Shown: positions 45,277 through 60,686, numbered from the stretch's first letter. The stretch: 61,160 bases of DNA from Aigarchaeota archaeon (GCA_025058515.1 JANXDW010000016.1:1-61160); one strand, 5' to 3'. Notes: generated from the sequence alone by a model not told the origin. A program made the numbers and translations.

Positions 45277-46686
45277 ATGTGGAGAAGATTGCTAGTATTG
45301 ATAGCGCTGTTCACGTTCCCCCTTTCTATCAGGATCTCCTTCTGGATACTCAACTTTTCACAGCAAGTAAACTTAGCAATCTACGACCTTGAATATTATG
45401 TAGATAATAGCATACTATTAACAACATCAATATCTTCAGGCAATTTAGATATAGTTAAGCAATTGTTATTCCATCCTTTGCTAGGATTCTATACAACTAG
45501 TGTTTCTTCATTGGTCTTCGGAAACCTTCTAGATAAATATCATGCAGGACTCTTATCTCCTATCATCTTCTCATCACTAATTTGTTTGATTGTTTATCTT
45601 ATCGGTGAAAAGATAGGTGGATTTAAGGTTGGTATAGCTGCATGGCTTCTGGCAACGCTCGATCCATACTCTATCCAGTTTTCAACAACTTTTCTAGATA
45701 TGCCGGCAACTTTCTTCTCAACACTATTCTTCTACCTATTATTAGAAGGTCATTATACAAAGAGTCTAAAGAAGCTGATACTCTTAGGTATAGTAGCAGG
45801 TCTCGCATTCTCCTCTAAACATATTGTAATACCTTCAATTGGACTTCTTATACTATTATTGATGAGAAGCTACAGAAGAATTGTGATGATCGCTTTAACA
45901 GCTGTCTTGACTTACCTCTTTTTAAACATCTTTAAGTTTACCTCATTAGAGTACGTGACTCTGATGGTTACGTTGAATATAAGTGGTGGAGCAATCGGCA
46001 TCCCTGCAATAATATACGGACCAATAGAGATAGGTAAACCATACACTTACCCATGGTATGTTCTGACATATCTTGGCTTAGGATACACTGGATTCAGGGT
46101 TGCGCCATTCGTGGTCCCATTATTATGTCTCATCTTTTATGCTAAGTTTAAGGTTAAAGAGAGAGCAGACTTTAACAATAGTGAATACACTTTGCTAGTT
46201 TATTGGGTAGCTACTTCTCTCATCCCTCTAATTCTTCTTCCTAGAAATTACTGGACAGTGGAAGTCCTATATTTTGCAGGAAAAGCTGTACAGAGTGATG
46301 TATTCATGAAATTTTTCTATCCTTATTATCACATCGTAACTGTACCTTCACTATCGGTTTTAACATCATATTTCATTTTAAGGTCAAACCGTTCTTCTAT
46401 TAGATGTTGCAGTTACAGTGATTTGGTCTTAACAAAAGGCAGCATCTTTGCTAGACGAATATTTGAAGTACTGATAACAATCTTTTTAATATTGTCTCCT
46501 TTAGCTTTTCTCTCAAATACAGTTTTCCCATTCTGGGATTTCCTCTTCGTACTCACAATAAACATAGAGAACTACAAGGAGCCCGTGCTTATGGATATGG
46601 GTCTTCACTCATTAATAGTATTAACAGCACTAATGGTGACAACACTCTTAATATCCATAATTCTAAACTGGAGAAAACATTTCTAA
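45277..46686 (+). CDS. GT-C type membrane glycosyltransferase
   Basis: 469-residue polytopic protein with about 11-12 hydrophobic helices. The first extracellular loop begins YDLEYYVDNSILL, an acidic pair placed like the catalytic Asp/Glu of GT39/PMT and ArnT-type transferases that use lipid-linked sugars. LLEGHYTKSLKKLILLGIVAGLAFSSKH is also typical of that fold. It may glycosylate surface proteins, which fits the threonine-rich proteins 11 kb downstream, but that link is inference. Confidence 0.75.
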   Translation: MWRRLLVLIALFTFPLSIRISFWILNFSQQVNLAIYDLEYYVDNSILLTTSISSGNLDIVKQLLFHPLLGFYTTSVSSLVFGNLLDKYHAGLLSPIIFSSLICLIVYLIGEKIGGFKVGIAAWLLATLDPYSIQFSTTFLDMPATFFSTLFFYLLLEGHYTKSLKKLILLGIVAGLAFSSKHIVIPSIGLLILLLMRSYRRIVMIALTAVLTYLFLNIFKFTSLEYVTLMVTLNISGGAIGIPAIIYGPIEIGKPYTYPWYVLTYLGLGYTGFRVAPFVVPLLCLIFYAKFKVKERADFNNSEYTLLVYWVATSLIPLILLPRNYWTVEVLYFAGKAVQSDVFMKFFYPYYHIVTVPSLSVLTSYFILRSNRSSIRCCSYSDLVLTKGSIFARRIFEVLITIFLILSPLAFLSNTVFPFWDFLFVLTINIENYKEPVLMDMGLHSLIVLTALMVTTLLISIILNWRKHF

Positions 46687-46845: not shown

Positions 46846-47298
46846 CTATTGACAACTAACTGTAGCCGTGGTCGGCGCATATGGAGCGGTTCCAGTTCCT
46901 AACGTTGCTAGTACCGCTGTTGGATAAGTCTTCCCACCTGCACTATGAAATGCTAACTCCACGGTGACACCAGGTGGAGGTGAGGTAACATCCACTGTAC
47001 AAGTGACTGCTTGTCCAACTCCTACCGTTTTAGCAGGGCTCAGTATTCCTACTGCTCTACCTTGAACTACTACTTGTATTATTGCTGTATCAGCTGAGCC
47101 TGTATTTCTTATTATTACTTGGAATGTGTCTGGAGCCGTCATTATTGCTGAGACTATTTCTAGTTTCTCGAATCTTGTGAATACTCCTACTAGTCCAGAT
47201 GCCCAGAATGCTACTGCGATCGCTATAACTATCGCTACAGCTACTAGGATAACAGTTGCAACTACAGGGCTTATACCAGATTTACCCTTACCCTTCAT
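46846..47298 (-). CDS. Archaeal type IV pilin
   Basis: 150-residue major-type pilin candidate. Class III signal peptide: basic MKGKGKSG then ISPVVATVILVAVAIVIAIAVAFW, with prepilin-peptidase cleavage expected after G8. The rest is a small beta-rich head with Gly/Thr/Ala-rich sequence and one C-terminal cysteine (TATVSCQ) plus one at TCTVDV, possibly a disulfide. Base composition is more GC-rich than neighbours. It would polymerise into the filament built by the ATPase and TadC-like proteins nearby. ATG 47298 has no clear Shine-Dalgarno. Confidence 0.88.
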   Translation of the reverse strand: MKGKGKSGISPVVATVILVAVAIVIAIAVAFWASGLVGVFTRFEKLEIVSAIMTAPDTFQVIIRNTGSADTAIIQVVVQGRAVGILSPAKTVGVGQAVTCTVDVTSPPPGVTVELAFHSAGGKTYPTAVLATLGTGTAPYAPTTATVSCQ

Positions 47299-47517
47299 TA
47301 TGTTTAATATTTACAATCTTTCTAATAAATCTTTAGAAAAAATGTCTACATAATTGTACATACTTAAGATAAGCTCATATCGCATAAATATTCGGAACGT
47401 CGTATCTGGCCATACAAAATACTGTAAATCTCGAAGAGAATAATCATGAAGTTGAAGACTTTAATATGAGAAAACTTTAATTAACAAGACATCAAATAGA
47501 TTAGAGGAAAAGGGTCT

Positions 47518-48210
47518 TTGAGCTTAAAAGAAGAGATCCTAGATCTTCTACAGAAAGATAGAGAGTTTAGATATGCTGTAGCTGGATTAATCGGACTAGA
47601 AGAGATATTGAGAAGACACGATAGACATGAAGAAGAACTCGTTAAGCTTAGACAAGAAACAATAAAGATTCTAGAAGAACAAGCTAAATTAAGAGAAGAA
47701 CAAACTAGACTAGGAGAAGAACAAGTCAAGCTGAGAGAAGAACAAGTCAGACTAAGAGAAGAACAGATAAGGTTGAGAGAAGAACAGATAAGACTAAGAG
47801 AAGATATGAATAGAGGTTTTATGCTCATTGAGAGGCATATCACAGCTCTAGGAGCTAGATGGGGGGTAATGAGTGAAGAAGCATTTAGAGAAGGGATCAA
47901 AGGGCTCATAGAGAAAGAGTTTGGATTTAAGGTTGAGAAACTCATCCTCTATGATAAGGATGGCTCTGTCTATGGTCATCCAAGCCAAGTAGATATAGAC
48001 ATTGCAGTACACGATGAAAAGATAATACTAATCGAGGTTAAATCTTATGCTAGACCATCTGATGTCTCAATATTCATGAAGAAGGCTCAGCTCTATAAAG
48101 AGCTAGAGAGAAAAGAACCATCAAAACTCATCATAGTAACACCATACGCTGAAGATAAAGCATTAGAAGTAGCTAGAAATCTTGGAATAGAGATATACAC
48201 TAAACTCTAG
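47518..48210 (+). CDS. Coiled-coil PD-(D/E)XK nuclease-like protein
   Basis: 230 residues: an N-terminal helical segment, a long coiled coil of repeated RLREEQI heptads (about residues 50-98), then an alpha/beta domain whose VDIDIAVHDEKIILIEVKSYA fits the D-(x)n-E-x-K active site of PD-(D/E)XK nucleases. Such DUF3782-like proteins are common in thermophilic archaea; function unknown, possibly DNA cleavage or binding. TTG start at 47518. Convergent with the TadC-like gene. Confidence 0.8.
   Translation: MSLKEEILDLLQKDREFRYAVAGLIGLEEILRRHDRHEEELVKLRQETIKILEEQAKLREEQTRLGEEQVKLREEQVRLREEQIRLREEQIRLREDMNRGFMLIERHITALGARWGVMSEEAFREGIKGLIEKEFGFKVEKLILYDKDGSVYGHPSQVDIDIAVHDEKIILIEVKSYARPSDVSIFMKKAQLYKELERKEPSKLIIVTPYAEDKALEVARNLGIEIYTKL
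47674..47799 (+). repeat. 21-bp tandem repeat encoding coiled-coil heptads
   Basis: Six units, each starting GAAGAACAR at 47674, 47695, 47716, 47737, 47758 and 47779, with a degenerate seventh at 47800. One unit encodes seven residues (EEQxxLR). Units at 47758-47799 are nearly identical, so copy number may vary between strains. Confidence 0.9.
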
Positions 48211-48294
48211 AATATGTTTAAAGAAGAGATAGTTTGGAAGCCATAATCAACCATGGTGTTAAAGTAGATTATTGGAATCATCTCACCTTGTATA

Positions 48295-50073
48295 TTATGT
48301 CATCGTGGGTGTTGAGAATATTTGTATCGAGAGTGTACCAGATAACCATACAGCTATAAATGATACAACCGATAATATGAATGCATGCTTGAACCCTGCA
48401 GCTATAACTCCTGAGGAGACTTTTCCTGCTACGAGCCCGCTTATAACAGCTACAAGTATTACTGGTGGAAGGAAGAAGTGGATGAACTCTGCGAGAGAGA
48501 TGTAGATCTTAGCTATCTGGAGGAGGTTACGCATAAAGCTTACAAGTATGACCACTACTACAACTAACATTATAGCCGCCATGTACGGTATTATCATTAA
48601 GGGTAGGAGAGTAGACCTCTTCTGCTTCTCAACCTCTTCAAGATTCTCCATAAACGTAGATAAGACATCGAAGGTTTCAGGAGCTCCCCCTCCAACATCT
48701 ATAGCATCTATCAAGATGTAGAGGCTTGCTCTACTCATCCATCCATGAACACGTTTGACGAAGTCTTGATAGACTTTTCTAAGAGACTCACCCCAACCAA
48801 TCTGCCTAGCGATAACCTTGAGATGCTTGCTGAAGCCACCGTAGGGTCTATCCTTAAGAGTAATGATACATTTCTCAGGGCTCATACCAGTCTTTCTAGC
48901 TTCTGTAAGATCTCTCAAGAACAAGGTCATACCGTGAAGAATACTCATACTCTCTTTACCATACTTCTCGTAAAACACCATCCCCGGAGCGAATAAGATC
49001 ATAAAGAATATACTTAAAGCAATAGAAGATTCATAACCTTGAACTAGGCCCATAATTTTCCTCAGCTCGACTATGAGAGAACTAGTAAGATCGAATGGTG
49101 GAATATATCTTAAAAAGTCTAGGAAGAATGGAGCGACAAACAATATCAAGAATATAGATGAGAAAGGTATAGTCATATAGAATACTCTATAAGGTCTAAC
49201 ATCGGTCATCGGGTACTTTGGTTGAGTAATATCCGCTAGATAGAGGAAGACCAGAGCTAATAGAGGCATGATAAAGTATGCGAAGATAACGAACTGTTCA
49301 GATGGCAGTACAAGAAACTCGCTCGGCATAGCTCTAGAAACAATATAGATTATGTAGATAACAAGTGAGAGCACCATGGTTATAGCTGCATAAGCTTCCA
49401 TAAGCATGCCCATCCTCTCTCCTATAATCCTCATCTTACCCATCCTAGCATCAAATATCTGCTCAGTCTTCCTTATCAAGAAGTGTACAACATCTCCACC
49501 ACTCCTCAAAGTTGAAGCATAACCCATGATCAAGTCTCTGTATTCCTTAGAAGGCACACCCTTAGCCATATCCTCCATAGCAGATACAGGGTCAACTCCA
49601 CCAATCTTTACTCTTATCTCAGCATTTTTAGCAGCTTTAGCAATATTTGGCATAAGCTCTCCTTTAGCAATTCGGCTAAGGCTAGTGTATGGAGCGATAC
49701 CTCCAGTAGCCATAACCGCTAGATATGTTGCAGCATATGGAACCTCACTCTCAAGTACAGAAGATACTGAAGAAGCTTCACCATAAGGATAGAGAACACC
49801 CATCATGAAAGCTAGAGCTGGAATAATAAAAACTATCAAAGAAATTAATAGATTACCTGTTAAAAGAAGAAGAATAACTGATAAGATAGATGTAAATATT
49901 AAGCTGATAACTGTTATCCCAGCTACTATAGAAGCATATGCTTCGGGATGAATACGTTTACCTGAACTCTCAAGTTTAGCAGAGATACCTGGAAACATCT
50001 TAAGAATGTATATACCTAAACCTCTAAAGTTAGCGTAAGAGAAACCACTGAAACTCTCTAAAAACCCCATCAA
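48295..50073 (-). CDS. Type IV pilus/Tad assembly membrane protein (TadC/FlaJ-like)
   Basis: 592-residue platform protein with two GspF-type domains, as in archaeal FlaJ/PilC. N-terminal helices (ITVISLIFTSILSVILLLLTG), first cytoplasmic domain (VPYAATYLAVMATGGIAPYTS...LRSGGDVVHFLIRKTEQ), central helices, second domain (FLRDLTEARKTGMSPEKCII...DAIDVGGGAPETFDVLS), and C-terminal helices. It docks the secretion ATPase and extrudes pilins. The cognate ATPase is at 52321 on the other strand. Confidence 0.9.
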   Translation of the reverse strand: MMGFLESFSGFSYANFRGLGIYILKMFPGISAKLESSGKRIHPEAYASIVAGITVISLIFTSILSVILLLLTGNLLISLIVFIIPALAFMMGVLYPYGEASSVSSVLESEVPYAATYLAVMATGGIAPYTSLSRIAKGELMPNIAKAAKNAEIRVKIGGVDPVSAMEDMAKGVPSKEYRDLIMGYASTLRSGGDVVHFLIRKTEQIFDARMGKMRIIGERMGMLMEAYAAITMVLSLVIYIIYIVSRAMPSEFLVLPSEQFVIFAYFIMPLLALVFLYLADITQPKYPMTDVRPYRVFYMTIPFSSIFLILFVAPFFLDFLRYIPPFDLTSSLIVELRKIMGLVQGYESSIALSIFFMILFAPGMVFYEKYGKESMSILHGMTLFLRDLTEARKTGMSPEKCIITLKDRPYGGFSKHLKVIARQIGWGESLRKVYQDFVKRVHGWMSRASLYILIDAIDVGGGAPETFDVLSTFMENLEEVEKQKRSTLLPLMIIPYMAAIMLVVVVVILVSFMRNLLQIAKIYISLAEFIHFFLPPVILVAVISGLVAGKVSSGVIAAGFKHAFILSVVSFIAVWLSGTLSIQIFSTPTMT

Positions 50074-50325
50074 TATATGGAACCCGCTCCCTGTATATAA
50101 AATTTTTTTGATAAACGTTCAAACCTCATAGTAAAAACTGTATCTCTATTTTAGATGAACGATCGAGAAGGTATAGTTGGAAGCATCTTGAAATCCATGA
50201 GAATCTTTCATGTAATCTCTAGAGATAAGAGAGATGTCTAATGAAACGATATACTTCTAAGAGGAGAATTAGAGAGATTATCAAGATAGAGGTAGAGGAT
50301 GGGTTATATGATGTTTTTAGATTTT

Positions 50326-50859
50326 TTATTTAATCTGAACAGCTACCTTACTCTTGACTAGATTTATCAAACATATCAACAATCTATTTACACTTTCTTT
50401 ATCATAAGCTATTGTTGGATATATAGGAGTATCTTCAGAAGCTTTAAGAGCTCTTCTAATAGCATCTAAACTCAACTTATTCTCTTTATCGTATTTATTT
50501 GCAGAAATTACATGAGGTTTTTTAGGATGCATCGATCTAAAGAACATATACATATGTAAGGCATCATTCAAGCTTGTTGGATCACTACTATCTACCATGA
50601 AGATATATCCATCCATACCTATGGACAGGGCACGCCACATAAAGTGGAATCTACTTTGCCCAGGTGTACCGAATAATCTAATCATAGTTCCCTCAATATT
50701 CACTAATCCGAAGTCAAGTGCTACAGTTGTAGTCGATTTAACTAATTCATCAGATAGAACTCGTTTATCTGTTGTGAGAGCATTACTACATAAAGTCTTG
50801 ATTAGAGTAGTCTTTCCAGCATTATATGGTCCTGTAATAAGTATCTTGAGTATCTTCAT
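50326..50859 (-). CDS. Small Ras-like GTPase (MglA/CvnD type)
   Basis: 177-residue single-domain GTPase. G1 GPYNAGKTTL at residue 10, DFG segment TTVALDFGLVNIEG for G2, G3 FGTPGQSRFHFMW, G4 ANKYD. The DFG/FGTPGQ pattern is that of the COG2229-type GTPases associated with roadblock proteins, as in Streptomyces conservons and MglA/MglB. Overlaps the roadblock gene before it by 4 bases (ATGA), so the two are coupled. Expected to cycle between GTP and GDP with the roadblock protein as GAP or scaffold. No lipidation signal visible. Confidence 0.9.
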   Translation of the reverse strand: MKILKILITGPYNAGKTTLIKTLCSNALTTDKRVLSDELVKSTTTVALDFGLVNIEGTMIRLFGTPGQSRFHFMWRALSIGMDGYIFMVDSSDPTSLNDALHMYMFFRSMHPKKPHVISANKYDKENKLSLDAIRRALKASEDTPIYPTIAYDKESVNRLLICLINLVKSKVAVQIK

Positions 50860-51218
50860 GATTTACCCGATAAGAAGGCTTCAAGTATTAAGTTCACGAA
50901 TCCGAGGTTTGGGTTCGGCTTTGTAATACAGATGATATAATACTCTTTATAGTTTTTAATTAATAGATGTCTCTTATCTTTCAACTGAACATCTATTTTA
51001 TCGAAACCCTTAGAGTTCAGTAGATCGACTACAGCTGATGTCGCACCAGCTATAGCTGCGGTTGTAGCGGCAATGTAGTCTGGATTAAAATCGACGTTAG
51101 CATTGTACGATAGGGGGGTTCCATCTTGAGAGATTATCGCTACAGCCTCCACCCAACCCTTACTACTAACCATTATGCTTTCTACAAGTACGTTTAAAGA
51201 TTCATACGCTGTAGCCAT
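50856..51218 (-). CDS. Roadblock/LC7 protein (MglB-like)
   Basis: 120-residue roadblock domain: VEAVAIISQDGTPLSYNA, a central helix and IDVQLKDKRHLLIKNY, ending KPNPNLGFVNLILEAF. Roadblock dimers bind small GTPases and membranes. It sits between the membrane-anchored roadblock and the GTPase, overlapping the GTPase gene by 4 bases and following the upstream gene by 2 bases. It is a paralogue of the protein at 60246-60686 (shared KPN..GFV.LILE tail). Confidence 0.88.
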   Translation of the reverse strand: MATAYESLNVLVESIMVSSKGWVEAVAIISQDGTPLSYNANVDFNPDYIAATTAAIAGATSAVVDLLNSKGFDKIDVQLKDKRHLLIKNYKEYYIICITKPNPNLGFVNLILEAFLSGKS

Positions 51219-51220
51219 GG

Positions 51221-51847
51221 CTACTCACCTCTTCTCTTAACTATTGATGAGACATAGTTCCTTAAGAGTTCTCTGGCCTCCTCAACATCTACTGAAACCT
51301 CCGGTCCACTTAGAAGGAGAGCGTATACCTCCATATCACCAACTTGCGAGACAGATAGTATAAGACCTTGAACCCCATCTTTAATAGTTATAGCATCTGT
51401 TGGAAACCCCGACTTCTTTAAAGTTGCAACTATATCTGCTAAAGCAGCGGCTAGCATCTCTTCTTCTTTAACGTTATACGATTCTATCGACATACCTGTT
51501 AGATTAAAGAGGAAGATAGAGTTAACTGTTAAAGCACTAGAGATCTCTTCTAGAGTCTCTAATCCACTTGTAATCTTGATGAAATTTGTGGTCTTAGAGA
51601 TCGGTTGAGAGATAGAGACTCGAGATGGGGGTGGATGCGAGGCTGGTGGTGGAGTAGAGGTAGTAGTAGGAGGAGATGTATGAGCTGCCCTAGATGTAAT
51701 GGATGTAATCATAGTAGATAATCTTCTAGCTACTAAAAGTGTAGTGACAACTGCTATAATCGATAATGCAACTGCAATTAAAATGAATGTGAACAACAGT
51801 AATGGACTCGATAATAAGTTATACAAAGCTTCAAGAAACCCATCCAT
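51221..51847 (-). CDS. Membrane-anchored roadblock/LC7 protein
   Basis: 208 residues: one N-terminal transmembrane helix (LLLFTFILIAVALSIIAVVTTLL, residues ~16-39), a Thr/Pro/Ser-rich linker (~55-80, with TSPPTTTSTPPPASHPPP), then a C-terminal roadblock-like domain (LEEISSALTVNSIFLFNLTG ... VSQVGDMEVYALLLSGP). It could tether the GTPase/roadblock pair to the cell membrane near the pilus base. First gene of the three-gene operon running to 50326. Confidence 0.8.
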   Translation of the reverse strand: MDGFLEALYNLLSSPLLLFTFILIAVALSIIAVVTTLLVARRLSTMITSITSRAAHTSPPTTTSTPPPASHPPPSRVSISQPISKTTNFIKITSGLETLEEISSALTVNSIFLFNLTGMSIESYNVKEEEMLAAALADIVATLKKSGFPTDAITIKDGVQGLILSVSQVGDMEVYALLLSGPEVSVDVEEARELLRNYVSSIVKRRGE

Positions 51848-52320
51848 CTTAAAGTAATATCCACCATTCTTCCTTAAAACATTTTCGCAATCGTTTTATG
51901 GAAGGTTATTCAACATCATAGACCTAGGTTCTACGACTTTTTACAATAATTAGCAAACTATAATTTTTTAAGATCTAAGAAAGTCAAGTTCCTAAGCTAG
52001 AGTAGTTTACACCTTGAATTGTTGATTCTTCTCCTTCTACATCTTCTGGCCAGATAGACTTAACTAGTAGAAAGAATGCTCTAAGTTTTAGACATCTCAA
52101 GGATTATTGAGAAATGAATACAAAGATGAGATTGGCCAATATAAATACATAGTAAAGCTAAAAGAACAATAAACTACCCTCATCGATAATTCATAAACTA
52201 AGAATTCTTCCTCGCTCCAAAGATTAAGATACGTCTTTAACTCTTCTTATTTTCAACCTTACTTCAGAGGAAGAATTTAAGAATTATTTAGTAATATATT
52301 TAGTGAGAGGAGAGGGGTGG
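51848..52320. other. Long divergent intergenic region
   Basis: 473 bp between the roadblock operon (minus) and the secretion ATPase gene (plus). AT-rich, with a TATA-like tagtaatatatttag at 52289-52303 near the plus-strand start and a GGAGAGGGGTGG block just before ATG 52321. No further gene, tRNA or repeat was found. Confidence 0.5.
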
Positions 52321-54129
52321 ATGCAGTTATTCAAAAAGAAGGAAGAAGTGAAGATGAAGACCGATACAGGTGTTAGAGTCGATCCAGTACCACCAGACTA
52401 TGAAATTCTTCAACGATATCCTATAAGAGAAGATTTAGCTGAAGTGGTGATTGCTGCAAAACCAGGTATAATACTTGAGCCAATATACTTTGTAAGAGAA
52501 GTAGAGTTGACAGAAGCTGAAGCAAATACATTAAAGCGGTTGAAAGATTTTCTATCTAAAGAGCTTGAACCTCCTACTATTGGAGAAGAAGCAGAGGTTA
52601 GGAAAGTTCTATTAGATTCAGCTGACAAGTTAATTAAGAAATATGGTAAAGGTATAGGTGTTGTTGATGAAAACTCGAAGAGGAAGATCTTCTACCATCT
52701 TGAGAGAGATATGCTGGGCTTCGGTCTACTGAACGTGATAATGGAAGACTATAGAATAGAAGACATCTCATGCGATGGAGTAAACGTACCGATATACGTC
52801 TGGCATAGAGATTACGAGAGCATGCCTACAAACATAATGTTTACAGATAGAGCAGTCCTAGACGATTTTATAATCCAGTTAGCGCATAAAGCTGGGAAGC
52901 ATATCTCTTCAGCATTCCCAATGCTTGATGCTATGATATATGGTAAACATAGGCTTGCAGCAACATTTAGAGAAGAGATCTCACCTAGAGGGTCGACATT
53001 CACTATTAGGAAGTTTAGAGAGAAGCCTTTCAGTATAGTTGAATTATTGCGGAGTAATGTCATGAGTACTGAGCTCGCAGCCTACTTCTGGATACTCTTA
53101 GAGAATAAAGCGAACATAATGGTTGCCGGAGCAACTGGCAGCGGGAAGACAACGCTCTTAAACGCTCTCTCCTGTTTCATAAAGCCTAGGATGAAGATCA
53201 TAACATGTGAAGAGACAGCTGAATTAAATATGCCTACAGAGAACTGGGTAAGATTCGTAACTCGTGAAAGTTATGGTATTGGGGCAAAGATAGGTCAGAT
53301 AACATTATTCGACTTAGTTAGAATGAGTTTAAGGTATCGTCCAGACTACTTAATAGTTGGAGAGATAAGAGGTGAAGAAGCATTCGTCTTATTCCAAGCA
53401 ATCGCTACTGGTCATGGCGGGCTATCAACTGTACACGCAGAGAGCATAGAGACCGCTGTCAAGAGATTGGTAAGCCCACCTATGAACATACCTCCAAGCC
53501 ATATACCTCTTCTAGATGTTCTCTGCCTAGTTGAGAGAACAATACTTCCCAGACCATTTAAGGGGATGACATTTGGTAGAAGGATGAGGTATATATGGGA
53601 GATAACAGATTACGAAAAATATGAACTAATAGGAGAATGGGATCCATTAACTGATACCTTTAAAACAGACTTCGATAAGAGCCTTATCCTTGAACAAATA
53701 GCTTTGAGATGGGGAAAGAAGAAGATAGATTTAATTAGAGAATTACTTAGGAGGAAAGCCATACTAGAATGGATGGTGAGCAAAGGTTTTGAAGGAGTGA
53801 GTGAAGTTGCTAAAGTCATCTACTCATATTACACTGATCCTGATAGGTTCATTAAAGAGATGGGAATAAAGGTGGAAGAAGCACTTGTTCCCATCTCTAT
53901 CCCTATAACCAAACCGAGAGAGATATCATTAGAGAAAATCAAAACCGCAGCAAACTACATTATAGAATTATTGAGAGCAAATAATGGTGTTGCACCTTAC
54001 TATCAAGTATTCGTTAAGATACCTCAACCGAAAGACGTCCTCGTCGAAGCCTTGAAACAGTTAAGAGAAGATGGAATAATATACATCGATGCTATGAATA
54101 TTAAACTCAAAGAGATAGTTGGAAGATAG
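52321..54129 (+). CDS. Type IV pilus/secretion ATPase (TadA/FlaI/VirB11-like)
   Basis: 602-residue hexameric ATPase for pilin extrusion. N-terminal domain (~220 residues), then Walker A AGATGSGKTTLLNAL (~residue 270), Asp box region, Walker B YLIVGEIRGEEAFVL and His box ATGHGGLSTVHAES. The C-terminal ~120 residues end with a winged-helix-like segment (VLVEALKQLREDGIIYI). Start at ATG 52321 after GGAGAGGGGTGG; GTG 52303 is possible. Partner of the TadC-like protein 2 kb upstream on the other strand. Confidence 0.93.
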   Translation: MQLFKKKEEVKMKTDTGVRVDPVPPDYEILQRYPIREDLAEVVIAAKPGIILEPIYFVREVELTEAEANTLKRLKDFLSKELEPPTIGEEAEVRKVLLDSADKLIKKYGKGIGVVDENSKRKIFYHLERDMLGFGLLNVIMEDYRIEDISCDGVNVPIYVWHRDYESMPTNIMFTDRAVLDDFIIQLAHKAGKHISSAFPMLDAMIYGKHRLAATFREEISPRGSTFTIRKFREKPFSIVELLRSNVMSTELAAYFWILLENKANIMVAGATGSGKTTLLNALSCFIKPRMKIITCEETAELNMPTENWVRFVTRESYGIGAKIGQITLFDLVRMSLRYRPDYLIVGEIRGEEAFVLFQAIATGHGGLSTVHAESIETAVKRLVSPPMNIPPSHIPLLDVLCLVERTILPRPFKGMTFGRRMRYIWEITDYEKYELIGEWDPLTDTFKTDFDKSLILEQIALRWGKKKIDLIRELLRRKAILEWMVSKGFEGVSEVAKVIYSYYTDPDRFIKEMGIKVEEALVPISIPITKPREISLEKIKTAANYIIELLRANNGVAPYYQVFVKIPQPKDVLVEALKQLREDGIIYIDAMNIKLKEIVGR

Positions 54130-54183
54130 TAATGTAGATTGCGCTAGGTAAAATTTAAAAATGTCTAATAACATTATTTAGTT

Positions 54184-54774
54184 ATGCCTTACAAAATAAT
54201 CTTCTATACGTCTGGAGATGAATTATCAAACAAGGTACTGAAAATTCTTAATGGATTAATTAGAGAAGTTAGAAATAGGTCTAAGTTATCTTCGAGAGAT
54301 GTTTGGCCAGCTCACGCAGTTACTACAGTGAAGGTGTCTCTTCCTTCAACCCTGGGGAAGAGTGAAGAGCTTGAACTCGAGATCTGGACAACTTTAAAAA
54401 ACTATGAAGAAGATATGAAGACGAAGTTTGGATTAAGTGGTATTCCATCTGTCAAGATAGGTGACAAGATTCTCTCAAGTTTACAGGTTCTAGATATAGC
54501 TTCAGATATTCATGCATTATTAACTAGTAATACGTATACTACGGCTGAGCAGATATTTTATCATCTAGCGACTACTGCTCAGAGCCTATCTGAGAAAGAA
54601 TTGAAGAGAGCAGTTGAAGCTGAAGAGGTCTTCTCATCCAATATCTTCAGAGCAACAATAAGTGAGAAAATGGCCAATCTAGATAAATTGTTAAAGGAGA
54701 AGAAGATAGATGAAGAAACTTATAAGAAGATGAAGCGAGTATATGAAGAACTTTTAGGGAAGAGTTCTGATTAA
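54184..54774 (+). CDS. Thioredoxin-fold-like hypothetical protein in pilus cluster
   Basis: 196-residue soluble protein, not recognised. The first ~100 residues look like a thioredoxin-type fold without CxxC: KIIFYTSGDELSNKVLKILN, then GLSGIPSVKIGDKIL with a cis-proline-like IPS. The second half is helical with a charged C-terminal coiled coil (ANLDKLLKEKKIDEETYKKM). TATA-like sequence precedes the ATG. Between the ATPase and a roadblock gene, it may be a chaperone or regulator of the pilus machine. Confidence 0.6.
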   Translation: MPYKIIFYTSGDELSNKVLKILNGLIREVRNRSKLSSRDVWPAHAVTTVKVSLPSTLGKSEELELEIWTTLKNYEEDMKTKFGLSGIPSVKIGDKILSSLQVLDIASDIHALLTSNTYTTAEQIFYHLATTAQSLSEKELKRAVEAEEVFSSNIFRATISEKMANLDKLLKEKKIDEETYKKMKRVYEELLGKSSD

Positions 54775-54851
54775 CTATAAGACATCTGGAAAAATTATAC
54801 CAACAAGCATATATAATGATATAAAGTAGATATTATCTTAGGTGGTAAGGT

Positions 54852-55220
54852 GTGGCTACCCGTGCGGAAAAATTACAAACTGTAATAAGTGAGCTTACAA
54901 GAGGTAACCCAGACATAATTGGAACAGCAGTTATAAGTGCAGATGGGTTAATGATCTTTAGTAGGTTACCTGCTGGGATAGATGAAGAAAGGGCTTCAGC
55001 AGCTATCTCCGCACTCCAGAGCATAGTTGAGAGGGTATCAGAACAGGTGGCTTTAGGTAAGCTTAACTATCTTATACTCTTAACAGATAAAGGTGGATCT
55101 ATTCTTTACGCAGGAAAGAAAGCATCACTAGTAGTTCTCATGAGCCCTAAAGCTAAGATAGGATTACTAATAATGGATGTTAAAGATGCAGTAGATAAGC
55201 TTAAAGACCTACTAGATTAA
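54852..55220 (+). CDS. Roadblock/LC7 domain protein
   Basis: 122-residue soluble roadblock domain: NPDIIGTAVISADGLMIFSR, the helix ASAAISALQSIVERVSEQV and LNYLILLTDKGGSILYAGKKASLVVL. GTG start at 54852 with TAGGTGG upstream. A different subfamily from the roadblock proteins at 50856 and 60246 (classic IxxADGLxI pattern). Lies between the thioredoxin-like gene and the prepilin-like genes. Confidence 0.92.
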   Translation: MATRAEKLQTVISELTRGNPDIIGTAVISADGLMIFSRLPAGIDEERASAAISALQSIVERVSEQVALGKLNYLILLTDKGGSILYAGKKASLVVLMSPKAKIGLLIMDVKDAVDKLKDLLD

Positions 55221-55360
55221 TGGTCTCTGACAGGATTACAATATGATTAATACTTCGCCTCTATGGTCTTGTATTCTTAGTCTATCATTATTACCACTGC
55301 AGTTTTAAAATAAATATTAACGAAAATTTTATATAGCATGAGAAATAAATAATAAACATA

Positions 55361-56524
55361 ATGGGAATTATAAAAAGGAAAACTCAATCTATGAAGAAGA
55401 AAGGTTTAACAGTCGTAGAAGTAGCTGTAATAGCATCACTTACACTTATTTTGGGATTATTCTTAATGGGGATATCTGCTGGATTATTTTTCAATACCAC
55501 ATTAGATTTAACGGAAGAAACCGATAGAAATATACAATTACTTAGAGGCATACTCTTCATAGAAAATGTAAAATATAGTGAAATTAATGGAGAAGAGTAT
55601 GCATATCTCTACCTCAGAAATATTGCTAAACAGTATATTGACTTAACTGTCGTTCGGGTAGAGCTAATAATCTCAAGAAACAATACATTATATGATTCAA
55701 TACCAGATACTCCAACTGGGTTTGGAAACTTAACGAAATTAAAAACAGGCGAAAAGAAGATAATAGAGTCCCCGATCTGCCCTTCATGTATGAAGGGTGA
55801 AGTACTGATTTATAGAGTCTGGTATATTTCATCAGACATGTATAATGTTGAAAATCCTTTAATGTCTATTAACGATATGTTGTATGTAGAAGCTAAGATA
55901 GCTAAGCCGATAGGCGCTGAGATGTCGTTAAAATGTCCTCTACCTAGAGACAATTGGGTAATAGTAGATTACGTAGACCCCGTTACGGGAGCAATGTTTG
56001 GACGTATTAGCAGTCTAGACCCTGTTATTAGCATCAGACCATCTTTAGCATCCACTCAGGCTAATGACGTTTCTTTTACGATCACTGTTAGAGAAATTGA
56101 AGGAGCTGGTTCTGGTTCAGGGTCTGCAACGCTTAATATACCTACAATTCGCCTTGAACGTATACGAGGAGTTTACGGTGGTCTTCAAACACCAATGAAG
56201 ATATTTGTATATTCTGACTGGAATATAATTCAAAAAGAATGGGTGCTAGGTGGCATCCCTGAAAAAATACATGTAAGTAGTGTATTTCTACAATGGTCTA
56301 GAGTTGATAGGACTCTTGAAGGGATTATGCTTGAACTTGGATATGGAGAGGTGGGAAGCTATACAGTAACAATAATTTTAAAAGATTGTGAACAAGATGT
56401 TATCCAAACCTTTTCGCTTCCTATTTCCGTTGATAAGATTAACGAATTTGAAGTAAAGTTTATTCCTGTTTCAACTCAAATAAGAATTGACCAAGTGTAT
56501 TTTGTAGAGACTATAGTAGTCTAG
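55361..56524 (+). CDS. Prepilin-like surface protein A (paralogue pair)
   Basis: 387 residues with a prepilin-like start: basic KRKTQSMKKKG then LTVVEVAVIASLTLILGLFLMG, where cleavage after G15 leaves Glu at mature position 5, as in bacterial type IV pilins. A large beta-rich ectodomain follows, with a CPSC pair near residue 141 and CPLPRDNWVIVDYVDP near 205. It aligns with the next protein along its length (CPSC/CPRC, YVDPVTG/YVNPEESG, IQKEWVLGG/IQNRWILKR), so the two arose by duplication. Probably a minor pilin or tip protein. Confidence 0.75.
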   Translation: MGIIKRKTQSMKKKGLTVVEVAVIASLTLILGLFLMGISAGLFFNTTLDLTEETDRNIQLLRGILFIENVKYSEINGEEYAYLYLRNIAKQYIDLTVVRVELIISRNNTLYDSIPDTPTGFGNLTKLKTGEKKIIESPICPSCMKGEVLIYRVWYISSDMYNVENPLMSINDMLYVEAKIAKPIGAEMSLKCPLPRDNWVIVDYVDPVTGAMFGRISSLDPVISIRPSLASTQANDVSFTITVREIEGAGSGSGSATLNIPTIRLERIRGVYGGLQTPMKIFVYSDWNIIQKEWVLGGIPEKIHVSSVFLQWSRVDRTLEGIMLELGYGEVGSYTVTIILKDCEQDVIQTFSLPISVDKINEFEVKFIPVSTQIRIDQVYFVETIVV

Positions 56525-56537
56525 AGAGGATGAGAAG

Positions 56538-58286
56538 ATGATGAGACGTGGTCAGAGCAACCTTGTCATAGTAACTATCGTTACAGCATTAGTAATAGGC
56601 ATCGGCCTCTTTCTATGGAGCATGATCTCCGGATATGCTATAGTTTATCGAGCAAAGGCGTTAGAAGAATTTAATGCTGAAGTTCTCGTCCTTCGGTCTC
56701 TAATCTCTGCAGACTATGTTATCTATCCTGGGGGAGAGGCATATATAAGAAATATTGGTAAAGAGCCTATTGTGATATTTAGGCTGATTACTCTACGGAA
56801 TGGAGAAGTTGTTTGGGATTCTTATCAAGTTCACGGAGTGAGAGAGATCTCATTGATAGATGTAGGAAAAATGGAGAAAATATATTTTGAGTGCCCTAGA
56901 TGTGACCGGGATGACTTAGTAGTTCTACAAGTGCATTACATGCCAGTTAAGCTTTATGACCCATCGAATCCTGAATTGATCAATCCAACATCAGATGTTT
57001 TATTGTTTAGAGTCGCCTCATTTAAAGCGGAGGAACTCAAAGTTGCTCCTGGAATGATATGTCCGATAAGTGATAAATGGGCTTGGGTGGACTATGTCAA
57101 CCCCGAGGAATCTGGCCAGACTATCAGAAACATCTTAAGAGTTAAATTCTCTAGAGCTTCTGAGCTAGAGAACGTTTTACTATATGCAAGATTGGTTGAC
57201 CGTGATGGCGACGTTGCTGAAGGTGAAAAGATGGTTCCAAGCATATCCAGCGGGGAGGAAACAATAGAACTAACTTCTCAATCTAGCCTAGAATATCCTG
57301 CTGAAATAGCTCTTAGTATAGAGACCCCAAACTGGACGCTTATCCAGAATCGTTGGATTTTAAAGAGAGATGTTACAGCATATGTTGACAAAGTCATGCT
57401 TACCTGGAGCCCTTACACTTTTAGGTTAACCGGCGCATTCATTACAATCAATTACAATGATGATGGACAGTATAAAATAGTAGTCAGAGTATATGATTGT
57501 AATAATGCATTAATTGCAGAAGGAAAAATTCATGATTATAATGTTAATCTAGGAAGCTTCCGGGAATTATATGTTGACTATGGGTTAGAACTAGATCGAA
57601 ACCCCCTCATGAGTGATGTCTACACGGTCGAAGTCTACGTTGTTGATATTTCTCCACCAGTGACCGTAACTTATACGATAACAGAAACAACAACTACTAC
57701 GACTACTTCAACGACTACTACTTTCAGAACAGTTCCCGAGAAGACGGTAACCAATACACAGACAAGGACTCTAACAAGCACCACAACGAGGACTACTACC
57801 TCTTACACTACTCAAACTTTGACGACGCCCTCGACAACGACGACTACGACAGTAACGTCAACTCGGACTTCAACTATTACATCATACATCACTACCATTA
57901 CTGCGACTACGATTAGGACAACTACATCAACCATATGGACATCGTTGACAACGACCCGAACGACAACGACAGCAGTTCCTGGTGTTACTCGTACTACTAC
58001 ACAAATTGTTACTACAACTGTTCCAACCACAGTTTCAACGCAAACTATGACAATACCTATTACATCTTATACTACTGTAACTACTAATACGATAACGTCA
58101 ACTACAACTCTATACACTACGATAACTTACACTAGGACCACAACAGTGACCACTAAGATGTCGACATGTCCATCGGGATTCTTTGTCCAGACTTCTGATA
58201 GAGTTGCATATTTTCTCTCTTTCAGCGTTTTCCTTCCTGCATTATGTGTATTCGCCTTAAGTAGGAGGTGGAGAAATGCCTCATAA
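56538..58286 (+). CDS. Prepilin-like surface protein B with threonine-rich stalk
   Basis: 582 residues. Prepilin-like start (MMRRGQ then SNLVIVTIVTALVIGIGLFLW), beta-rich ectodomain homologous to the preceding protein (CPRC at ~120, CPISDKWAWVDYVNP ~185), then ~170 residues (372-543) almost entirely Thr with Ser, Val, Ile and Arg, and a C-terminal hydrophobic helix (VAYFLSFSVFLPALCVFAL) with SRRWRNAS tail. The stalk is likely heavily O-glycosylated. Overlaps the next gene by 11 bases; 13 bp after the preceding gene. Confidence 0.75.
   Translation: MMRRGQSNLVIVTIVTALVIGIGLFLWSMISGYAIVYRAKALEEFNAEVLVLRSLISADYVIYPGGEAYIRNIGKEPIVIFRLITLRNGEVVWDSYQVHGVREISLIDVGKMEKIYFECPRCDRDDLVVLQVHYMPVKLYDPSNPELINPTSDVLLFRVASFKAEELKVAPGMICPISDKWAWVDYVNPEESGQTIRNILRVKFSRASELENVLLYARLVDRDGDVAEGEKMVPSISSGEETIELTSQSSLEYPAEIALSIETPNWTLIQNRWILKRDVTAYVDKVMLTWSPYTFRLTGAFITINYNDDGQYKIVVRVYDCNNALIAEGKIHDYNVNLGSFRELYVDYGLELDRNPLMSDVYTVEVYVVDISPPVTVTYTITETTTTTTTSTTTTFRTVPEKTVTNTQTRTLTSTTTRTTTSYTTQTLTTPSTTTTTTVTSTRTSTITSYITTITATTIRTTTSTIWTSLTTTRTTTTAVPGVTRTTTQIVTTTVPTTVSTQTMTIPITSYTTVTTNTITSTTTLYTTITYTRTTTVTTKMSTCPSGFFVQTSDRVAYFLSFSVFLPALCVFALSRRWRNAS
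57675..58160 (+). repeat. Threonine-codon low-complexity tract 1
   Basis: Low-complexity ACN-codon run encoding the mucin-like stalk of the protein at 56538-58286. All four Thr codons are mixed, so selection acts on the protein rather than on DNA slippage. Confidence 0.9.
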
Positions 58287-58890
58287 TTTGAATGAAGCTA
58301 AAACAGTGTTTGTGATGATTGTTCTTGCGATAGCTTTACTAGGCGTATTTGCTAGTTTAATTCCAGAATCATATTCGGGGAGGACTGAAACCATCACCAC
58401 CAGAGTCACAACAACTATAACAGTTACAAGTACAACTACAGAGACAGGCACCGTATCTTCTGGAACAGTAACAGAGGAAACTACAACTACTATAACAACA
58501 GGAACTACTACGACAACTACTCAGATCTCAACGATGACTACTACTTTGAGGACAGGAACTACTACGACGACTATAACAAGAACTACTACTACCACTACGA
58601 GGACATCTGCTACCCAAATTATAACAACAACTACTACCACTATAAGGATGACAACAGTGACAACTTGGACTACTCTCTGGATTACGTCAACCATCACTTC
58701 CGGGACAACGATCGTTAGCTTGACTAGTACCCAGACAGTTGCGCAGCCTGTCACGGTTACAACCACGACTTATCGAACAACCATTATTCCTACATCAATA
58801 ACAAGCACTGTCACCATTACTAAATCTGCTACTACTTCAACTACAAGAACCCAAACCGTTACGACGACAATTTGTGAAGCAGGTGGATGA
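58276..58890 (+). CDS. Membrane-anchored threonine-rich mucin-like protein
   Basis: 204 residues: short N-terminus, one transmembrane helix (TVFVMIVLAIALLGVFASLI, residues ~10-29) and ~165 residues of Thr/Ser-rich stalk ending TVTTTICEAGG with a terminal cysteine. No folded domain. It overlaps the end of the preceding stalk-bearing gene and is followed after 1 bp by the next, so it is part of the same operon. Probably an O-glycosylated surface spacer. Confidence 0.75.
   Translation: MPHNLNEAKTVFVMIVLAIALLGVFASLIPESYSGRTETITTRVTTTITVTSTTTETGTVSSGTVTEETTTTITTGTTTTTTQISTMTTTLRTGTTTTTITRTTTTTTRTSATQIITTTTTTIRMTTVTTWTTLWITSTITSGTTIVSLTSTQTVAQPVTVTTTTYRTTIIPTSITSTVTITKSATTSTTRTQTVTTTICEAGG
58395..58880 (+). 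repeat. Threonine-codon low-complexity tract 2
   Basis: Second ACN-codon run, encoding the stalk of the 58276-58890 protein. Similar in composition to tract 1, separated from it by the C-terminal helix and N-terminal helix of the two proteins. Confidence 0.88.
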
Positions 58891-58891
58891 A

Positions 58892-60145
58892 ATGAAGATA
58901 AATAAGAGAGCTATCTCTGCAATAATTGGGACTACAATAGCTTTGACAATTGTCTTTGCGATTATCATACCTTTATTCATTTACATGCAAAGTCTACAGA
59001 GCCTGTTCATGCAAGAAGCAAATAGGCGACTTCAATATGAGTTAGAAAGACTTAATGAGAGATTAGAAGTGTATACTACAATATGTGGAGGTTGGGGTAC
59101 ATCTGAGCTAAATATATGCATAGTAATATGTAATCCTGGGATGCTTTCAGTGGCAGTCCCAACAATTTATGGTGAAAGCTATAGATATGGGTTGATAAGA
59201 GAAGAGAAAAACTTACTGATCGTGCCGGGCGAGAAGAAGGTGGTCCAACTTGAGAAAATAGCATTCAACCCTAACTTGAATGATACTATCAATGTTAAAC
59301 TGATAACATTGAGAGGCAATAGCTTCGTTTCAAAAAACATAATTGGGCCGAGAAATCTACCCTACATACTTGTAGTCACGTTAGGTAAAATGTCTATTGG
59401 ATACAAATACGAAGTTAAAGTTGAGATGGTTGGAGAACATGGATGCGTATCTAGTGAGTCGGGGCAAGCATGTCAAGCTTATGCAAGCCAGGAGTTTATT
59501 CCACAGAGTTCTCTGGATAGGAATACGGTAGCAGCATTCATGATAGCGCCTGGAAACTATACTGTGTCTCTGAGCGTCTACAATTTTGCTACTAGAGAGA
59601 TCGAGACACTTTCTCAACAGTTTATAGAGCTATTTGATGATACAGTAATTAGGCTTAATGCAACAGTCCGAGGCCCCTCGCTGGAAACTATACCACTTAG
59701 AATTCGTACATCTCTATCTGATGGAACCGTGATACTCATGCAAGGTGACGAAACAATAATAACTATGCCATATGTTGTCTCTCTAGGAAACCAATCTGAG
59801 CCGCTAAGAAACGTGAAGATAACTATTGAAGTAAACTCCGTTGGAGTCAGTAGCACTTTGATCTCTCCTGGATCCAAGATGATAAGTAGATTGTCTCCGG
59901 GAGAATCATATTATGATTATTTCATGATTCAAGTGAAAGACGATGATGGAGCTCCTTCAAAGTTTGGAGGTTATCTGGAATACAATATTATGGTCAAAGA
60001 AGCAACAGGAGAATTTACTGGAAAACAATATCAAGAATCTTCAATAGAGTTGCCTTCTTTAGTCAACAAAATAATCTTGTGCAGATTATACAAAGAAGTA
60101 AAGGAAACGGAGAAGCTTAATGTTTTGGTATGCGAAGCTTCCTGA
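58892..60145 (+). CDS. Prepilin-like surface protein C
   Basis: 417 residues with N-terminal pilin-like segment (KINKRAISAIIGTTIALTIVFAIIIPLFIYM), a charged helical stretch (RRLQYELERLNERLEVY) and a beta-rich ectodomain with several Ig-like pieces (DTVIRLNATVRGPSLETIPL; SLGNQSEPLRNVKITIEV). ATG 58892 is preceded by AGGTGG. Last gene of the plus-strand operon that starts with the paralogous surface proteins. Possible minor pilin or S-layer-associated protein. Confidence 0.72.
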   Translation: MKINKRAISAIIGTTIALTIVFAIIIPLFIYMQSLQSLFMQEANRRLQYELERLNERLEVYTTICGGWGTSELNICIVICNPGMLSVAVPTIYGESYRYGLIREEKNLLIVPGEKKVVQLEKIAFNPNLNDTINVKLITLRGNSFVSKNIIGPRNLPYILVVTLGKMSIGYKYEVKVEMVGEHGCVSSESGQACQAYASQEFIPQSSLDRNTVAAFMIAPGNYTVSLSVYNFATREIETLSQQFIELFDDTVIRLNATVRGPSLETIPLRIRTSLSDGTVILMQGDETIITMPYVVSLGNQSEPLRNVKITIEVNSVGVSSTLISPGSKMISRLSPGESYYDYFMIQVKDDDGAPSKFGGYLEYNIMVKEATGEFTGKQYQESSIELPSLVNKIILCRLYKEVKETEKLNVLVCEAS

Positions 60146-60245
60146 TATGGATAATTAATTCTAAACAGATCCTCTCACCTTATGCATCCACCTTGAATAA
60201 TGCTATAATAGTTGATTTCTCTTTTGGTGAGATTTTAATTATGCC

Positions 60246-60686
60246 CTAAATGCTTTCATAAGTAACTTGTTCTGTAATAATTTGTTTATGGGTGGGAGTT
60301 TCCGAGGTTGCTGATCGGTAATATTCTAAAATGAGTTCCACGAACCCTATCCTCACATTTGGTTTAGTTAAGCAGACTATGAAATAATCCATATAAGGCT
60401 CTACTATCAGAGATCTTTTATTATTAAATTGTATCCTAATTTTTCCAGGAACACCAAAATCAATGCTTCTTAAAATATTGAAGAAGCTCATAGTGATCCC
60501 GCTTGCAGCCTCAAAGTTCTCTAAGTAAGTATCCTCTTCTTCATCAATTCTTATGGCGAGAATGGATAAATCTCTAGAAATCAATGCTGCTACTTCAAGT
60601 AATTTTCTACTAGACGTCATTATATTTTCTACTAGACTATCAAAAGCTTCATAAACACTATAACCATTTTGAAAAGCTTTAACCAC
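60246..60686 (-). CDS. Roadblock/LC7 protein, paralogue of the MglB-like protein
   Basis: 146-residue roadblock domain, clearly related to the 50856-51218 protein: SLVENIMTSSRKLLEVAALIS versus VLVESIMVSSKGWVEAVAIIS, and CLTKPNVRIGFVELILEYY versus CITKPNPNLGFVNLILEAF. A ~20-residue C-terminal tail is extra. Monocistronic on the minus strand, convergent with the surface-protein operon. Presumably another partner for the GTPase. Confidence 0.85.
   Translation of the reverse strand: MVKAFQNGYSVYEAFDSLVENIMTSSRKLLEVAALISRDLSILAIRIDEEEDTYLENFEAASGITMSFFNILRSIDFGVPGKIRIQFNNKRSLIVEPYMDYFIVCLTKPNVRIGFVELILEYYRSATSETPTHKQIITEQVTYESI

Follow-up and report, generated by a model that had tools for sequence, protein, structure and literature searches.

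A GTPase-roadblock module within a type IV pilus locus of an aigarchaeote: a candidate membrane-tethered switch

What is known about the control of pili in archaea mostly concerns gene expression. A locus in which the genes of a type IV pilus (T4P) are interleaved with those for an MglA-type small GTPase and four roadblock/LC7 proteins raises the question of whether the pilus might also be controlled by a GTP-dependent switch. Such a locus lies at positions 46846–60686 of a contig of 61,160 bp (JANXDW010000016.1 in GCA_025058515.1; contig C51, the whole of which is here called the window) from a heat-loving Aigarchaeota archaeon. We consider it somewhat probable that the module is a membrane-tethered switch of the MglA/MglB type, which would control where or when a pilus resembling Ups pili and the archaellum is built. 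The source genome (G000) is a draft of 53 contigs, with 1.47 Mb and a completeness of 95%. Candidatus Geocrenenecus, Wolframiiraptor and Benthortus are the named relatives that share the locus, which makes the organism a Geocrenenecus-like representative of the Wolframiiraptoraceae (Caldarchaeales, Aigarchaeota). Gene comparisons covered 44 genomes from the class and 398 from the phylum; where codes are needed, G and L numbers denote genomes and loci, and f and g numbers denote families and genera.

The module and the machine

Three genes on the minus strand form an operon in the order RBm (51221–51847), RBa (50856–51218) and GTPase (50326–50859), with a gap of 2 nt between the first two and an overlap of 4 nt between the RBa stop and the GTPase start. 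A roadblock gene thus directly adjoins the GTPase gene, inside the distance of four genes by which MglA/MglB pairs are recognised. The GTPase matches the small GTPase family of Pfam, as the first-pass annotation had supposed in calling it MglA/CvnD-type, and its P-loop, Thr, catalytic Gln68 and NKxD motif are intact. In the alignment G64, P66, G67 and Q68 are invariant and T65 nearly so (GTPGQ in G3), T44-T45 is invariant, so that Thr replaces the arginine finger of G2, and the invariant N121, K122 and D124 show an intact NKxD in G4. GTPGQ in G3 and Thr in place of the G2 arginine mark Groups 2–5 of the MglA family (Wuichet and Sogaard-Andersen 2014); NKxD is intact in Groups 1, 4 and 5 as opposed to 2 and 3. 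Judged by these motifs, the GTPase is a member of Groups 2–5 and, within these, not of Group 2 or 3. The 28 residues between K16 and T44, a clearly longer stretch than in the KaiC-fused paralogues described below, may point towards Group 5, as the archaeal members in Group 4, unlike those of Group 5, lack a long insertion at this place between G1 and G2. A PDB profile search with the GTPase gave Thermus MglA (3t12) as the second match (E 4.7e-16).

RBm gave no roadblock match in Pfam or in PDB sequence searches. Its predicted structure has a long hydrophobic helix at the N-terminus, followed by a disordered linker rich in Pro and then by a roadblock fold (pLDDT 88–97 within the block), for which MglB of Myxococcus xanthus was the best PDB match in a fold search (E 5e-6, probability 1.00), with further matches to roadblock-type domains in Rag complexes. 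All RBm copies examined possess the N-terminal hydrophobic segment. On the strength of this model, RBm is a roadblock protein anchored by a single transmembrane (TM) helix. The Asp of the Asp-Gly pair found in MglB proteins that are coupled to Groups 2–5 is not conserved in RBm, while the pair is present in the MglB-like RBa (D32-G33, conserved) and in RBc (54852–55220, plus strand), the nearest solved structures to which are Asgard roadblock proteins. It is missing from RBd (60246–60686, minus strand), a paralogue of RBa (38% identity over 121 columns, E 4e-23), and RBd-like copies in Wolframiiraptor genomes are located away from the pilus locus. The proposal of four roadblock proteins, of which one has a membrane anchor, has thus held, by Pfam for RBa and RBc (both above the PF03259 cut-off), by paralogy for RBd, which has no Pfam roadblock match, and by predicted structure for RBm. 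Another contig of the genome has a partial match of roadblock type (G000:C44:23735-23911), possibly a gene fragment.

The machine itself comprises a TadA/FlaI-type assembly ATPase (52303–54129, plus strand; PF00437, T2SSE, E 8.5e-34), a TadC/FlaJ-type membrane platform with two T2SSF domains (48295–50073, minus strand; PF00482) and a major pilin (46846–47298, minus strand), which scores above the cut-off of the archaeal class III prepilin model TIGR02537 and whose gene adjoins TadC in relatives; all three had been identified correctly at first pass. The best NCBIfam models are UpsF for TadC and FlaI/BasE for the ATPase, and the pilin matches UpsA (E 1.8e-8), in each case below the equivalog cut-off. 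TadC is the sole T2SSF protein of the genome, the ATPase is its sole strong T2SSE protein (the other two hits are at about 1e-7), and a single prepilin peptidase is encoded on a different contig, so the locus is the only T4P machine detectable in this organism. The genome has the full set of genes by which an archaeal type IV pilus is recognised (T2SSE ATPase, TadC, class III prepilin and prepilin peptidase). With one TadC and one strong T4P ATPase, no other pilus or archaellum was seen that the module could serve, and we rejected a role as archaellum regulator since the genome has only one TadC.

How such a switch might work is suggested by Myxococcus, where MglA-GTP stimulates assembly of the T4P machinery (PMC9481161) and SofG positions PilB and PilT (PMC4316618). 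RBm and RBa are produced from one operon with the GTPase and would most likely pair as a roadblock heterodimer. This dimer would keep the GTPase membrane-bound next to TadC and, as GAP or GEF, change its nucleotide state. In its GTP form the GTPase may then recruit or activate the assembly ATPase, or act on TadC, perhaps by way of RBc and its thioredoxin-like neighbour on the ATPase side, and the outcome would set the place or the time of pilus assembly.

This neighbour (54184–54774, plus strand) has a thioredoxin-like predicted topology but no CxxC, and its gene is kept beside RBc in relatives. Wolframiiraptor gerlachensis carries both parts within a single protein (L122:5289-6131, minus strand), the model of which has a roadblock fold preceded by a region with beta-alpha-beta, thioredoxin-like topology, and this fusion supports a physical partnership of the two proteins on the ATPase side of the locus. 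Searching the PDB with the 54184 sequence returned nothing credible (the top match, a TAL effector, had no stretch that passes by itself) and the fold search with the fusion was swamped by roadblock matches, so the thioredoxin-like label derives only from predicted secondary structure and sequence.

Linkage of module and pilus in archaea and bacteria

Within the Wolframiiraptoraceae, each of the 14 GTPase-bearing genomes, including the source, carries pilus genes on the contig that encodes the GTPase, even where the order of genes has been rearranged locally; in Benthortus (L075) the linkage is by pilin and prepilins only. Among 22 genomes of the family, all 18 with an orthologous pilus ATPase also have RBa, which is missing from the four without this ATPase (G027, G030, G031 and G034), a co-occurrence with a Fisher p of 1.4e-4, not corrected for kinship. 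That the neighbourhood arose by chance or by misassembly might be suspected of a genome in 53 contigs; this explanation is extremely unlikely and is refuted by conservation, the arrangement being common to many independent genomes of the family. The linked cluster is also carried by W. gerlachensis (L122), a species reported in culture (PMC9246946).

Outside the family, linkage to pilus genes recurs in at least three archaeal lineages, namely f66 (L231), genus g91 of f29 (L237, L247) and, by a prepilin-like neighbour only, Thermoprotei archaeon B20_G17 (L235). Of all the lineages counted, 4 of 9 are linked, for which P is 6e-4 if the chance of proximity is set at 5% per lineage (our own estimate). 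In the GTPase tree the linked archaeal sequences lie in one weakly supported group (87) that includes unlinked f29 sequences, so that the archaeal link may be a single old one that was later broken in some lineages. Four f29 genomes (L237, L247, L249 and L250) encode two different GTPases together with RBa and RBc, and pilus genes stand beside them in L237 and L247.

An association of the same kind exists in bacteria. The search with the GTPase, from which the best 80 hits were taken and which is hence not an unbiased sample, returned close homologues (about 40–44% identity) from Coriobacteriia and related Actinomycetota, where the gene sits between two PilB genes, with PilT, PilC, pilin, a roadblock gene, a DUF4388 gene and a gene for a small TM protein nearby. 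This linkage was seen in all 22 Coriobacteriia-type sequences with enough flanking DNA, which form one clade (97%); in Mariprofundales and Chloroflexota relatives the GTPase is not linked to pilus genes. A T4aP operon of the Coriobacteriia type (L180:5581-15667, and many of L137–L189) has the order PilB, roadblock, DUF4388, GTPase, small TM protein, second PilB, PilT, PilC and pilin.

Several observations speak against a switch that serves the pilus everywhere. In Calditenuaceae the complete RBm-RBa-GTPase module is found among unrelated genes (a proteasome subunit, GSDH and a tRNA endonuclease), and the pilus lies elsewhere without a module. The module also stands without nearby pilus genes in f24 and most of f29, which we take to be Pyrobaculum-like and Thermofilum-like, respectively. 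Conversely, G004 of the sister family f2 (L110) has closely related pilus genes, with an ATPase, TadC and pilin that share 59%, 63% and 66% identity with those of the window, but no RBa at all. The absence of both RBa and ATPase from G027 and from three g4 genomes may in each case be one deletion, as the genes are linked. Finally, genus g4 of f1 retains RBm, RBa, TadC and pilin as well as the ATPase, with the GTPase nowhere in three genomes that are 95–98% complete, so the GTPase is dispensable.

The first-pass annotation had tied a GTPase with a tethered roadblock protein to the pilus, and had named two things that would together refute this, the pair in relatives away from pilus genes and a lack of interaction with pilus components. 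The first half applies, as such relatives exist (Calditenuaceae and the Thermofilum-like and Pyrobaculum-like families), and so does a pilus without the module (f2). The tie stands in its conserved linkage in Wolframiiraptoraceae, its co-absence and its recurrence in f66, f29-g91, B20_G17 and bacteria, but not as a dedicated arrangement throughout, and the suggested placing, starting or stopping of the apparatus is an inference. The module is portable and has been plugged into pili; given the stand-alone modules in relatives, the switch has other uses.

Stand-alone copies beside unrelated genes in Calditenuaceae, f24 and f29, and a GTPase in G009, where only distant pilus ATPases were found, are also what would be seen if the module were a general membrane device for signalling or polarity (surface sensing, division or the envelope) that in Wolframiiraptoraceae is just expressed together with the pilus as one unit and does not act on the machine. 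We regard this as rather unlikely, as the linkage is repeated in separate lineages, bacterial as well as archaeal, absence of RBa coincides exactly with that of the pilus ATPase within the family, and the roadblock pair is kept in a TadC operon even where there is no GTPase.

This last arrangement deserves attention of its own. In Wolframiiraptor there are often two RBm-RBa pairs per genome, one by the GTPase and one by TadC, and those RBa copies of g4 and g5 that are linked to TadC (RBa2) form a supported clade (97% SH-aLRT, 8 sequences) that is always beside RBm and TadC and never beside the GTPase. In two genera, therefore, a roadblock pair without GTPase belongs to the pilus operon. Together with the g4 genomes and the occurrence of roadblock genes across archaeal T4P loci (PMC4858521), this could mean that the pair is the part that acts on the pilus, scaffolding TadC and the ATPase, with the GTPase as an optional input lost in some lineages. 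Such a role appears improbable to us, since the pair directly precedes the GTPase in most genera and the stand-alone modules keep the GTPase. A wider proposal is that the membrane-anchored roadblock, the second roadblock and the MglA-type GTPase constitute a portable, Ragulator-like platform that would have been plugged separately into archaeal and bacterial pili, and of which the roadblock half would in some archaea have become a GTPase-free part of the pilus platform; this we put forward tentatively, as a possibility on the doubtful side. We continue to favour, with the reservations given, a membrane-tethered switch that controls the pilus.

Surface proteins and further genes of the locus

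Every gene named at first pass is an open reading frame at the position given for it. Of the three prepilin-like surface proteins proposed there, PP1 (55361–56524) has a KKKG-hydrophobic N-terminus and is kept in relatives, PP2 (56538–58286) has a Thr-rich stalk and a C-terminal TM segment, and PP4 (58874–60145) has weak matches to UpsA and UpsB, all on the plus strand. The N-terminal sequence is in each case the only source of the label; PP1 and PP2 have no match to a family model. Four genes of the cluster had been overlooked: the thioredoxin-like 54184 gene, PP3 (58276–58890, plus strand), a Thr-rich protein with an N-terminal TM segment for which L066 and L067 have open reading frames of similar size in the same place, and two genes near the pilin. 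One of these encodes a PMT-type glycosyltransferase (45277–46686, plus strand; PF13231), a probable accessory for glycosylation of pilin or stalk, with homologues at the pilus loci of L066 (51% identity) and of Calditenuaceae (L098, L100–L103, L111). The other, a DUF3782/PDDEXK nuclease-like gene (47518–48210, plus strand), lies between pilin and TadC on the opposite strand, and is not at the corresponding place in L066 or L067.

The pilus ATPase of two relatives is interrupted by an intein within the GEIRG stretch, near residue 368 (L068:1242-4499, minus strand, with Intein_splicing and LAGLIDADG domains; L071:4086-7364, plus strand, with Intein_splicing). The ATPase of the window has none, and Calditenuaceae also hold long, distant ATPases with inteins. 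In g2, g5 and Calditenuaceae (L070, L073, L074, L098–L103) the neighbour of the pilus ATPase is a protein of about 507 aa without Pfam match, itself next to an ABC-transporter ATPase in g2. MglA-like GTPase domains are elsewhere fused behind a KaiC/RecA-like ATPase domain (L084:8931-10136, L085:10181-11386 and L254–L257), in several cases with an adjoining roadblock gene.

Known systems and the meaning of the locus

With the MglA/MglB system of Myxococcus xanthus and Thermus the locus shares a Ras-like GTPase gene adjoining a roadblock gene, an RBm fold closest to MglB and a GTPase matched by Thermus MglA. It differs in that MglA belongs to Group 1, while the GTPase described here is of the type of Groups 2–5 without the G2 arginine, and in having two different operon roadblocks, one of them TM-anchored, inside a pilus locus. 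The polarity module of Myxococcus also includes a response regulator of the RomR type, whereas no match to the receiver domain PF00072 was found in the source genome (12 of 14 control genomes were positive), so that an input of this kind was rejected. The actinobacterial conservons (CvnA–D) likewise combine a roadblock gene and a GTPGQ-type GTPase in one operon. Their GTPase, however, is of Group 2 and lacks the intact NKxD present here, and as the neighbourhood contains pilus genes instead of a histidine kinase (CvnA) or CvnC, we rejected a conservon.

The pilin, TadC and ATPase match models of Ups and Bas pili and of the archaellum (UpsA, UpsF, FlaI, BasE), but none reaches the equivalog cut-off, and the locus adds prepilin-like and stalk proteins and the GTPase module. 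The T4aP operons of Coriobacteriia and Actinomycetota have a GTPase of the same family, a roadblock gene and a small TM protein; they differ in their bacterial PilB, PilT and PilC and the DUF4388 protein, and in that no roadblock domain was detected in their TM protein. Ragulator-Rag shares the concept of a membrane-anchored roadblock platform that holds a Ras-like GTPase, an analogy only, as the locus has neither a lipid anchor nor a Rag-type GTPase.

The first-pass annotation named no archaeal precedent for this composition, which was too strong, as a single sentence of Makarova et al. (2016; PMC4858521) notes roadblock genes, there of arCOG02603, in a variety of archaeal T4P loci, and the present locus likewise contains roadblock genes; the main text of that paper mentions no Ras-like GTPase, no membrane-anchored roadblock and no mechanism. 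The genes around MglA of Groups 4 and 5 are said to vary or to include no conserved partner (Wuichet and Sogaard-Andersen 2014). Our literature search, with most subscription journals outside its reach, yielded no account of T4P loci in which a GTPase is accompanied by a membrane-anchored roadblock, none of Ras-like GTPases in T4P loci of archaea and none of MglA in those of Coriobacteriia.

If the favoured reading is true, a GTPase-roadblock switch would provide post-translational control of pili in archaea, similar to polarity control in Myxococcus, and the genus that has the roadblock pair but no GTPase would represent a natural experiment. T4P control of the MglA/MglB type would then operate in two domains of life.

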